Positions 1,200-4,165 of a stretch of 5,012 nucleotides of DNA are shown one piece after another. Origin of the DNA: Deltaproteobacteria bacterium (lineage in GTDB: Bacteria > Campylobacterota_A > Desulfurellia > JAGGSF01); the NCBI GenBank assembly GCA_021159235.1, contig JAGGSF010000071.1, positions 1 through 5,012 of the forward strand, written 5' to 3'. Each line of letters starts with the position of its first letter. Positions within the stretch are counted from its first letter, which is position 1. The translations under genes and the position numbers were made by a program. Under the pieces are notes generated by a model. That model was given only the letters and a program-made list of their open reading frames with translations, did no database searches and was not told the DNA's origin.

Positions 1200-1219
1200 T
1201 ACCCTTTTCCATAAAATCG

Positions 1220-1228
1220 TGATATATT
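1220..1228 (+). promoter_or_regulatory. Putative extended -10 promoter of the endonuclease V-HD gene
   Basis: TGATATATT is a TGN extended -10 joined to TATATT. No convincing -35 lies 16-18 bases upstream, which is typical of extended -10 promoters. The element ends seven bases before ATG at 1236, so the predicted transcription start falls at or within a base of the start codon. There is no Shine-Dalgarno sequence in the seven bases between (TAAAGCA), consistent with a leaderless mRNA. Confidence 0.4.
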
Positions 1229-1235
1229 TAAAGCA

Positions 1236-2492
1236 ATGAAACAGAAGCTCTTTCATCCATGGACAAAGGACGCAAGAAAAGCAATAGATATACAAAATAG
1301 CCTGAGGAAGAAGATTGTTTTTGAAAAGATAAATGAAAGTAGTGTGCGCTATGTAGCAGGTATTGATGTATCTTATGATAGAGATTTAAAGAAGACAATT
1401 GCAGGCGTTGTAGTCTATGATATAAAACAAAAGTGTGTTGTAGAAAAAGAATATGCCATTTTAAAAACCGATTTTCCCTATATTCCCGGTTTGCTCACCT
1501 TCCGAGAAGGTGAAGCAACCTGCATAGCACTGGAAAAGTTAAATGTGGAACCCGACTGTCTCATGTTTGATGCTCAGGGATATGCTCATCCCAGGCGTAT
1601 GGGTTTAGCTACGCATATCGGTGTGTTATTTGATAAGTGTTCTATCGGTTGTGCAAAGAGCAGGTTAACTGGAAGGTTTGATGAGCATAAAGATTTCAGT
1701 TTTCTGTATGATGATACAGAGATAATAGGAGCTGTATTAAGAACAAAGAAGAATACAAAACCTATATTTATCTCCATAGGCAATCGTATAGACCTTTCTT
1801 CTGCTGTTCAGATTGTAAAAAGATGCCTAAATAACCACAGGTTGCCCGAACCCACCAGGCTTGCCCATATCCTTGTAACAAACTTGAGAAACAAAGGGTT
1901 GACAAATGTTCAAGATTTCCGAGATCATAAGGGGTGGCTTATGAACAGAGAAGAATTGTTCGTGGAGTTGAAGAAAAAGGTAAAAAACAAAAATCTTATA
2001 AAGCATATGTTAGCTGTAGAGGCGGCAATGAGAAGTCTGGCCAAAAAAACAGGTGAAGATGAGGAAAAATGGGGTATTGCAGGTCTTTTGCATGACATTG
2101 ACTATGAACAGACAAAAAGTGATATGAACAAGCATAGTTTAATAGGTGCGGAAATATTGCAAAAGATGGGTTTGTCAGAGGATATTGTATATGCGGTAAA
2201 GGTGCACAATCCTGTGCACAATCTGCCCAGGAAAAGTAAAATGGATAAGGCACTTTATGCAGTAGACCCTCTGACGGGCTTGATTGTTGCCTGTGCGCTG
2301 ATAAAGCCAGAAAAGAAAATATCAAAAATAGACACAGGTTTTGTTATGAAAAAATTCAGGGAAAAGGGATTTGCGGCAGGAGCAGATAGGAAACAGATAA
2401 GAACATGTGAAGAACTGGGATTTTCTTTAGAAGAATTTGTAGACATCGTTCTAAAAGCAATGCAAGGTATATCCCAAGATTTAGGATTATAG
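1236..2492 (+). CDS. nfi: Endonuclease V fused to an HDIG/HD-domain phosphohydrolase
   Basis: A 418-residue two-domain protein. Residues 1-222 are endonuclease V, which nicks DNA one nucleotide 3' of deoxyinosine and other deaminated bases to start repair. Motifs in order are AGIDVSY (D44), FPYIPGLLTFRE (Y82, E91), FDAQGYAHPRRMGLATHIGV (D112, H118, H127), KSRLTG (K141) and RLPEPTRLAH (H211); D44, E91, D112 and H211 correspond to the metal-binding set of the Thermotoga enzyme. Residues 223-235 are a linker. Residues 236-418 match the free-standing HDIG-type HD proteins of about 180-190 residues: H257, H286-D287 in GLLHDID, H300, H324 and D344 in YAVDPLTG, with the typical FAAGADR and CEELG segments towards the end. 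The HD domain should be a metal-dependent phosphohydrolase of unknown substrate. The usual endonuclease V length is about 220-230, so both parts are full length and neither looks decayed. The symbol applies to the first domain only. ATG 1236 is the natural start because the nuclease N-terminus is complete. It is probably co-transcribed with the secreted repeat gene. Confidence 0.93.
   Translation: MKQKLFHPWTKDARKAIDIQNSLRKKIVFEKINESSVRYVAGIDVSYDRDLKKTIAGVVVYDIKQKCVVEKEYAILKTDFPYIPGLLTFREGEATCIALEKLNVEPDCLMFDAQGYAHPRRMGLATHIGVLFDKCSIGCAKSRLTGRFDEHKDFSFLYDDTEIIGAVLRTKKNTKPIFISIGNRIDLSSAVQIVKRCLNNHRLPEPTRLAHILVTNLRNKGLTNVQDFRDHKGWLMNREELFVELKKKVKNKNLIKHMLAVEAAMRSLAKKTGEDEEKWGIAGLLHDIDYEQTKSDMNKHSLIGAEILQKMGLSEDIVYAVKVHNPVHNLPRKSKMDKALYAVDPLTGLIVACALIKPEKKISKIDTGFVMKKFREKGFAAGADRKQIRTCEELGFSLEEFVDIVLKAMQGISQDLGL
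1929..1943 (+). promoter_or_regulatory. Internal ribosome binding site and ATG at the nuclease/HD junction
   Basis: AAGGGG at 1929-1934 lies six bases before an in-frame ATG at 1941 (residue 236 of the fusion). The protein from there begins MNREELF and runs into the HD domain exactly where free-standing HD proteins of this kind usually start. It could yield a separate 183-residue HD protein, or be a relic of a formerly independent gene. Sequence and spacing are observed; use as a start is inferred. The main gene start at 1236 has no comparable site. Confidence 0.5.
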
Positions 2493-2507: not shown

Positions 2508-3482
2508 ATGACAAGGTTGGTTTCATGTATCTTTCTGATGTGTTTTCTGGTTTTTTCAACAGGGACTTTCGCTGGCAGTATGCAATGGGAAAAAACATTT
2601 GGTGGAAGAAACAACGACGGAGCATTCTCCGTTCAGCCTGTTGGAGATGGTTATCTCGTTATTGGTTACACGGATTGTTTTGAGTATGGCGGCAGAGATG
2701 TATGGGTGATAAAGCTGGATAAAAGTGGAAATCAGATCTGGAATAGAGTATTCAGTGGACCCGAGTGGGATAAAGTGGCATCCATTAAGCGAATAAAAGA
2801 CGGATATATTGCCGTTGGTAGAAGTGGTCCTCCGTTTAAAGGTGATGCCTGGGTGGTAAAGATGGACAAAAATGCAAATCGGGTGTGGAAGAAGTTGTTT
2901 GGTGGAAATAACGATGACGGCGCCTATTCCGCTCAGCCTACAAAGGATGGATTTCTCATTGCAGGTTATACGAACTCCTATGGAAAGGGAGGGTATGATG
3001 CATGGATAATAAAACTGAATAAGGATGGAAATCGGGTATGGAGTAAGGTATTTGGTGGAAAGAGCAACGAGAGGGCATTTTCTGTTCAGCAGACAAGAGA
3101 CAAAGGATACATCGTTGTAGGAAGAAAGGGACTGCTGTTTAAAGGCGATGCCTGGGTGGTAAAGATGGATAGAGAAAGAAACATTGTCTGGGAAAGAACA
3201 TTCGGCGGTAGTGGAGATGATGTTGCTACGGCAGTTTGTGAAATGCCATCCGGCGAGTTTATCGTTGTGGGCTGGACATACTCCTTTGGACACGGCAAGA
3301 GTGATATGTGGATAATGAAACTGGATAGAGAGGGGAATACAATATGGAGTGATACATTTGGTGGCAGAGGTAATGATTGGGCAAATTCAGTGGAAAAAAC
3401 AGACGACGGCGGATATATTGTTGGGGGCGTAACCTATTCTTCTGGGAAGGGCAATAGTGATGCCTGGGTAAAGAAGTTTTAA
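2508..3482 (+). CDS. Secreted six-repeat protein, probable beta-propeller
   Basis: A 324-residue protein with a likely signal peptide: R3, a hydrophobic core at about residues 4-17, and a probable cut after A22 (TFA|GS). There is no lipobox, so the mature protein should be periplasmic or released. The rest is six tandem repeats of 49-52 residues starting at W27, W78, W127, W178, W228 and W280. The consensus is roughly W.K.FGG..ND.A.SV..T.DGGYIV.G.T.S.G.G..D.W..KLD..GN..W, repeats of the kind seen in propeller-like proteins of many anaerobic bacteria and archaea. Each repeat fits one four-stranded blade, suggesting a six-bladed propeller closed by the C-terminal DAWVKKF strand. Repeats 2 and 4 are a distinct shorter subtype (VGR....FKGDAWVVKMD). 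No catalytic residues are recognisable; ligand binding or a structural surface role is possible, but function is unknown. It follows the endonuclease V-HD gene by 15 bases and its stop overlaps the convergent DUF1614 gene. Confidence 0.85.
   Translation: MTRLVSCIFLMCFLVFSTGTFAGSMQWEKTFGGRNNDGAFSVQPVGDGYLVIGYTDCFEYGGRDVWVIKLDKSGNQIWNRVFSGPEWDKVASIKRIKDGYIAVGRSGPPFKGDAWVVKMDKNANRVWKKLFGGNNDDGAYSAQPTKDGFLIAGYTNSYGKGGYDAWIIKLNKDGNRVWSKVFGGKSNERAFSVQQTRDKGYIVVGRKGLLFKGDAWVVKMDRERNIVWERTFGGSGDDVATAVCEMPSGEFIVVGWTYSFGHGKSDMWIMKLDREGNTIWSDTFGGRGNDWANSVEKTDDGGYIVGGVTYSSGKGNSDAWVKKF
2586..2885 (+). repeat. Two-blade module, copy A (repeats 1-2)
   Basis: Codes residues 27-126. It pairs a long-form repeat (GYT....GG.D.W) with a short-form repeat (VGRSGPPFKGDAWVVKMD). 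The same long-short order recurs in copy B, indicating duplication of a unit of about 100 residues rather than of single blades. Confidence 0.65.
2886..3188 (+). repeat. Two-blade module, copy B (repeats 3-4)
   Basis: Codes residues 127-227. The 32 bases at 3138-3169 match 2835-2866 of copy A at all but one position, exactly 303 bases (101 codons) apart, which points to a recent duplication or gene conversion. Repeats 5 and 6 downstream are both long-form and break the alternation. Confidence 0.65.
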
Positions 3483-4165
3483 ACCAGCAAGACAGCGAGA
3501 ATTCCTGTTATAAATATGCCATCAAATGTTCCTGCTCCCCCTATTGATGCTATGGGTGCCCCCAATTCCTTTATTCTGTTCAACTTTAGCAAATCTGCTC
3601 CAATGAGCGTCCCCAAAACACCACTGATGTATGCCACAACGGCAGGGTTTTGAGGAGAAAGTGCCCAGGCCGAAATTGCAGCAGATATGGGTGGGATAAA
3701 AACAGGAATTCCAATGCCCAGACCTCTTATTGGTTTTGAAAAGAAATAGCAGATAACTAAAACTATAATCGTTGCTAAAAATGATTGTAACAGTAAGAGG
3801 TACATTTTAGCTACAAGCAGACGTATTATTTCATAAAATACGATCAACACAGGTATTAATGCACCACCGACATTTACGGCGATGGTCGTTTTCTGTTCTC
3901 TTATATGAGATATGGAGTATATAAGGTTAAAGAAGGAGATCTTCTCAAATCTTTCTATAGGTGTATAACTTTCTATCTTTTTGATGGGAATGTTTATAAA
4001 ACTCCCAATTAAGGAAAGCCAGAGCAAAATATAAGCCAGGAAAAAGGGAATGCCTAATTTGTGAAATACAAGTGTTACACCGCCTATAAAAGCCACAAGA
4101 AATAATGGCAACAAGAAGAGAATCAAAGCCAGCATCATAAAGGGTGTCAAAATTGGAGGAAACAT
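3479..4165 (-). CDS. DUF1614 family multi-pass membrane protein
   Basis: A 228-residue integral membrane protein, close to the usual DUF1614 length. Hydrophobic segments lie at about residues 10-34, 39-59, 96-118, 121-142, 150-169, 174-190 and 205-228, with a polar stretch at about 60-95. Family signatures are NVGGALIP (98-105), GTLIGADLLKL (185-195) and GAPIASIGGAGTFDGIF (202-218), the last two carrying D191 and D215 near membrane segments. The family occurs in archaea and bacteria; its function is not known to me and I do not infer one. The start at 4165 has no Shine-Dalgarno sequence; M10 or M11 are alternative starts but lack one too, and starting there would cost part of the first membrane segment. 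Its TAA overlaps the TAA of the convergent repeat gene. It is divergent from the two-component genes, so it could be one of their targets, though only position suggests this. Confidence 0.85.
   Translation of the reverse strand: MFPPILTPFMMLALILFLLPLFLVAFIGGVTLVFHKLGIPFFLAYILLWLSLIGSFINIPIKKIESYTPIERFEKISFFNLIYSISHIREQKTTIAVNVGGALIPVLIVFYEIIRLLVAKMYLLLLQSFLATIIVLVICYFFSKPIRGLGIGIPVFIPPISAAISAWALSPQNPAVVAYISGVLGTLIGADLLKLNRIKELGAPIASIGGAGTFDGIFITGILAVLLV

Follow-up and report, generated by a model that had tools for sequence, protein, structure and literature searches.

In this work we analyzed the open reading frame located at positions 1236-2492 of the forward strand of contig JAGGSF010000071.1 (assembly GCA_021159235.1). 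The window, i.e. the whole stretch of DNA that was analyzed, is the complete contig of 5012 bases (C64), one of the 122 contigs of a genome of 1.13 Mb. The frame encodes a single predicted protein in which an endonuclease V (EndoV), a nuclease of DNA and RNA repair, is followed by a metal-dependent phosphohydrolase domain of the HD superfamily that is normally a separate protein. We consider it probable that this gene originated when two intact genes fused recently in one lineage, and that it does not represent a new kind of enzyme. The fusion is regarded as a recent, one-off event because, among the matches listed, a single genome out of 538 contained it, and because the second gene has kept its own start signals. 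An isolated case like this one is of limited biological meaning; should the junction be real and the HD half be active on products linked to the cleavage of nucleic acids, it would offer a first indication of the function of a common HD family, which is encoded next to rnr and smpB in Bacillota and in an operon with EndoV elsewhere.

A single frame encodes two complete domains

The frame comprises 418 codons with no internal stops. Its first half was recognized by the Pfam profile Endonuclease_5 (PF04493) at residues 22-211 (E = 2e-69, 233.7 bits against a cut-off of 23.4), with a match that spans positions 2-197 of the 198 positions of the profile. The second half was recognized by the Pfam profile HD (PF01966) at residues 255-331 (E = 3.8e-12, 46.9 bits, cut-off 22), and by the NCBIfam profile TIGR00277 (HDIG) at residues 252-325 (E = 3.6e-15, 55.6 bits, cut-off 27.6). 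When the EndoV half was aligned with 20 homologues, D44, E91 and D112 were invariant and H211 nearly so; Y82 and P84 of the wedge motif PYIP (residues 82-85) and K141 are also invariant. For the HD half, an alignment of 33 homologues showed no variation at H257, H286 and D287 and hardly any at D344. The first-pass annotation of this DNA had proposed a complete EndoV and a complete HD domain in one frame, with these same residues as metal ligands, and both proposals were correct. It missed two additional histidines of the HD half, H300 and H324, which are invariant in the 33 homologues.

The EndoV half resembles Nfi of Thermotoga maritima (2w35), to which it aligns over residues 4-221 (phmmer, E = 5e-49) with the same catalytic residues and wedge motif. 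Its score against the NCBIfam equivalog NF041102 is below the cut-off (245.4 versus 300 bits); on sequence grounds, it is a member of the endonuclease V family that falls outside this curated subgroup. The fused frame is the sole EndoV of the genome, and also its sole close match to the HD family represented in the fused protein. The features of the locus are listed in Table 1.

Table 1. Coordinates of the features described in this work (positions refer to the window, except for the last row)
Feature	Position	Strand	Basis or remark
EndoV half, residues 1-222	1236..1901	+	PF04493; conservation in 20 homologues; model pLDDT about 90; C-terminal limit of homologues
Linker of residues 223-235 (TNVQDFRDHKGWL), likely of intergenic origin	1902..1940	+	No counterpart in homologues; low pLDDT; stops in other frames
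Shine-Dalgarno-like TAAGGGG, 6 nt ahead of the internal ATG	1928..1934	+	Predicted pairing with the 16S rRNA tail
HD half, residues 236-418, with its own ATG; ligands H257/H286-D287/H300/H324/D344	1941..2489	+	PF01966; TIGR00277; 33-member alignment; AlphaFold2
Stop codon TAG of the fused frame	2490..2492	+	Sequence
Synteny break relative to two same-genus genomes	1209..1235	+	DNA identity ends at 1208
TldD-TldE-EndoV-HyuA-HD-HyuB operon	L101:1825-5281; L127:4572-7852; L128:5385-8704	one strand	EndoV and HD two genes apart

pLDDT, predicted local distance difference test.

The fusion was found in a single genome

The 538 genomes were searched as overlapping sets: the phylum of the window (25 genomes), a diverse set (386), and the phyla of genomes G037 (54), G048 (3), G058 (4) and G269 (103). 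Matches were ordered by score; a fused homologue, by adding up the scores of both halves, would be expected at the top of the list. Among the matches listed, the fused protein was the only one of its kind; in no other genome seen is the stand-alone HD protein joined to EndoV. In the phylum of G269, nearly all of the 103 genomes carry the EndoV and HD genes, and these are separate, whereas in two genomes of the same genus as the window neither domain was found. The first-pass annotation had suggested inspecting homologous loci, where consistently separate domains would denote an isolated or erroneous case; the outcome agrees for the most part with an isolated case. Its statement that EndoV mostly stands alone also agrees with these data, and its remark that no EndoV-HD fusion had been characterized is in line with our literature searches for EndoV with an HD domain or in gene fusions, in which no description of this pairing was found. 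Within everything that was searched the pairing is new, and it is a single isolated case.

Several candidates were discarded. Long frames that include EndoV (G269, G407 and G389) or HD (G179) resembled fusions but are merely chance open frames that enclose ordinary genes, and a 912-residue frame in G115 spans a genuine TAG stop. Spread of the fusion by phages or plasmids is also disfavored, given that phages, plasmids and viral contigs yielded single-domain matches or none, and no fused match.

The junction retains the start site of the HD gene

Known EndoV proteins end at about residue 222 of the fused protein, where the linker begins, and the HD half (M236-L418) matches the stand-alone HD proteins of 183 residues from their first methionine through their last residue. 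The 13 codons in between, which the first-pass annotation had correctly delimited, encode residues without counterpart in EndoV or HD homologues. The ATG of M236, which corresponds to the start codon of the stand-alone HD gene, lies behind the strong Shine-Dalgarno-like sequence TAAGGGG with a spacing of 6 nt; this retained start had escaped the first-pass annotation. The predicted pairing of this sequence with the tail of the 16S rRNA (-10.5 kcal/mol) is the strongest among the 11 in-frame ATGs, and the site ranks within the top 1.6% of 1235 ATGs taken from the DNA of the same genome; the aminotransferase gene of the window has a comparable value (-11.2 kcal/mol).

Structural models are consistent with this division. 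In the model of the full-length protein the EndoV half is confidently predicted (about 90), and residues 222-235 have a pLDDT below 50. The HD half was poorly modelled in this prediction, probably because the alignment used contained EndoV rows only; the AlphaFold2 model of the HD half alone reached a pLDDT of 97. From its sequence the linker reads as former intergenic DNA, and the frame looks like two whole genes that were joined with the start of the HD gene retained. The HD half is probably also produced alone from this start.

The HD half belongs to a widespread family

The nearest stand-alone homologues are 60-67% identical to the HD half across its whole length, start and end included. 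These proteins of about 183 residues (TIGR00277; e.g. that of Caloranaerobacter azorensis, L003) are widespread in bacteria and archaea. The 33-member alignment revealed in the HD half the extended six-ligand pattern H...HD...H...H...D, by which, according to PMC8177086, dinuclear HD sites such as that of the Ap4A hydrolase YqeK are recognized in sequences. A profile built from the family could be aligned with YqeK structures (2o08, 8wmy) over the ligand residues, and H300 and H324 match histidines of YqeK. In contrast, the match leaves out the C-terminal part of the HD half, which bears a conserved FA...R motif, and the HD half scores well below the cut-offs of the equivalogs for YqeK (TIGR00488; 23.2 versus 70.15 bits) and RNase Y (TIGR03319; 34.3 versus 454.35 bits). 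A Foldseek search with the HD model gave no PDB match below E = 0.001; YpgQ appeared only as a weak match. In VIA-align the HD domain of the beta subunit of glycyl-tRNA synthetase (GlyRS), PgpH and YqeK were among the top ranks (Z 11-15). Structure comparison in general returned enzymes of the HD fold, i.e. the GlyRS beta HD domain, PgpH, HD-GYP and YqeK; matches to this predicted structure support the HD fold and not any particular substrate.

It had been proposed in the first-pass annotation, given that the HD superfamily includes nucleotidases and hydrolases of deoxynucleoside triphosphates (dNTPs), that the HD domain acts on a nucleotide or phosphate product linked to inosine metabolism. 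Nothing that was found ties the family to inosine, dITP or dNTPs, and neither the predicted dinuclear ligand set nor the rnr-smpB context described below speaks for such a role. The HD dNTPases and 5'-nucleotidases tabulated in PMC8177086 are mononuclear, with the exception of OxsA (mono/dinuclear). Hence, substrates such as dITP or dIMP are not especially favored. The reading of the HD half as a dNTPase or 5'-nucleotidase (such as YfbR, YpgQ or SAMHD1) was set aside, since its six-ligand pattern, predicted to be dinuclear, does not fit those mononuclear sites and no context gene speaks for it. Our best guess for the HD half is a phosphohydrolase or phosphodiesterase with two metals that would act on a nucleotide.

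The genomic context of the HD gene varies among lineages. In 10 loci of Bacillota and Halanaerobia (L002, L003, L004, L006, L008, L009, L010, L016, L018 and L019) the stand-alone HD gene is placed just upstream of rnr, which encodes RNase R, followed in most of them by smpB. This is the commonest context of the HD gene in these groups, and it is not one of purine salvage. The HD gene of Bacillota and Halanaerobia is also often found downstream of genes for a membrane pyrophosphatase and a 4HBT thioesterase. Literature searches on COG2316 and on aTrm56 with an HD domain returned no papers.

Alternative explanations for the fused frame

Some observations weigh against a recent, one-off fusion. 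The junction rests on a single metagenome-type contig, and the EndoV start upstream has a weak Shine-Dalgarno sequence (-3.8). In addition, in three genera of the phylum of G048 (G048, G114 and G115), EndoV and the same HD family are encoded on one strand in an operon with the order TldD, TldE, EndoV, HyuA, HD, HyuB, and this shared operon could reflect a functional link rather than chance. Except for EndoV and HD, these gene names are what we take the products to be from their sequences, and not the result of a profile search. In G114 and G115 (L127 and L128), where the stretch that was read reaches that far, genes for a phosphoribosyl pyrophosphate synthetase and a dehydrogenase are located upstream of the operon.

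The main alternative, which we judge unlikely although it deserves serious attention, is that the two genes are separate in the cell and appear joined as a consequence of a one-base assembly error or of a mutation in a single strain. Gaining or losing a single base within the linker would end EndoV at the TGA at 1900-1902, at the TAA at 1928-1930 (within TAAGGGG), or at the TGA at 1942-1944, which forms an ATGA overlap with the HD start; such layouts are ordinary for neighbouring genes, and the uniqueness of the fusion also favors this explanation. On the other hand, the other frames of the 5-kb contig contain no broken genes, so that the error rate is not high, and the longest homopolymer in the linker is no more than four bases. 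By our own estimate, a linker of this length would be free of stops by chance in about 4 in 10 cases at the given A+T content, so no sequence error is needed to account for it.

A selected bifunctional enzyme, in which the HD half would hydrolyze a nucleotide related to inosine or some other product associated with the cleavage by EndoV, seems to us improbable. Such an enzyme is suggested by the two predicted active sites, which are intact in the sequence, by the operon mentioned above, and by the location of the HD gene just upstream of RNase R and SmpB in Bacillota and Halanaerobia, which shows that nuclease neighbours recur. There is also a precedent: in the NadD-YqeK fusion of mycoplasmas, an HD domain is joined to the enzyme whose products it repairs or cleans up (PMC9426524). 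Against it stand the single occurrence of the fusion, the lack of both domains in the two same-genus genomes, the separate genes of the 103-genome phylum in which nearly all members have both, the different contexts of the HD gene in each lineage, and the absence of any link found between this family and inosine or dITP. The coupling of nicking to the clean-up of an inosine nucleotide, as put forward in the first-pass annotation, thus finds no support in the distribution of the fusion. The broader idea of a coupling fares better in part: the fusion is isolated and its HD partner corresponds to a common protein that otherwise stands alone, but the EndoV-HD operon occurs in three genera of an unrelated phylum.

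This operon is the only independent EndoV-HD association that was found; because of it a functional link may exist, although its likelihood is too low for us to prefer it. A more general version, which we likewise consider improbable, is that a single partnership underlies both the fusion and the EndoV-HyuA-HD-HyuB operon, in which a two-metal HD phosphohydrolase would act on nucleotides or fragments freed by nucleases (EndoV, or RNase R in Bacillota and Halanaerobia). If this were true, the fusion would be a Rosetta-stone clue to the function of a widespread HD family.

Origin of the locus

Positions 1-1208 of the window show 88% DNA identity to two genomes of the same genus, and the match ends 28 bases before the fused gene. 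These genomes carry a gene for a Kef-type antiporter where the fused gene stands in the window; no orthologue of it was found in the assembly that holds the fusion. The genes downstream of 1208 have no DNA match in the same-genus genomes. In maximum likelihood trees the HD half groups with copies from the phylum of G037 (support 98/90), apart from the HD copies of its own phylum, and the EndoV half falls outside the EndoV clades of its own phylum. Since both halves cluster away from the copies of their own phylum, the block that holds both genes looks, from these sequence comparisons, horizontally acquired, which is the simplest reading. In the preferred scenario of a recent gene fusion, an EndoV gene and an HD gene of 183 codons located directly downstream would have arrived on a DNA block that took the place of the gene next to the aminotransferase gene; loss of the stop codon between them would then have joined both genes, with about 13 codons of what had been intergenic sequence in between.

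The least probable of the explanations considered is a chimeric contig, in which the aminotransferase segment of this genus was misjoined to foreign DNA carrying the fusion: the end of identity at 1208, the unmatched downstream genes, the absence of the DUF1614 gene from the same-genus genomes and the placement of both halves outside the clades of their phylum would all fit, but the break lies in intergenic DNA just upstream of the gene, as expected for a normal insertion or replacement, and a misjoin alone would not explain why two genes within the foreign DNA are fused in frame.

Two other genes of the window were identified downstream of the fusion. A repeat protein of the SBBP/delta-60 type (324 residues; 2508-3482, +) begins 15 bases past the fused gene and has a strong Shine-Dalgarno site, so it is possibly co-transcribed with it. 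At 3479-4165 (-) lies the gene for the DUF1614 membrane protein, which is present in family f2 of the phylum and missing from the two same-genus genomes; it is likely part of the same foreign block as the fusion.

EndoV fusions with other partners

As cited in PMC3489907 and PMC10779285 (Kanugula et al. 2005), the AGT-EndoV protein of Ferroplasma acidarmanus has both activities, and is a natural fusion of EndoV to a second complete, functional domain. The protein described here is similar in this respect, but differs in that its partner is a C-terminal HD phosphohydrolase domain with which no shared pathway is known; the alkyltransferase domain DNA_binding_1 was absent from it in the Pfam search. 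Given AGT-EndoV and the fusions described next, EndoV seems to be joined to other domains occasionally, and its partners vary. In three genomes of the same phylum as the window, belonging to family f2, a DNA_binding_1 alkyltransferase-type domain with a PCYK motif precedes EndoV (L096:1232-2362, -; L097:1652-2866, -; L098:796-1833, +), an architecture like that of the Ferroplasma protein. In genome G042, a frame of 585 residues (L099:1599-3353, +) encodes EndoV followed by a head domain of the poly(A) polymerase/CCA-adding type.
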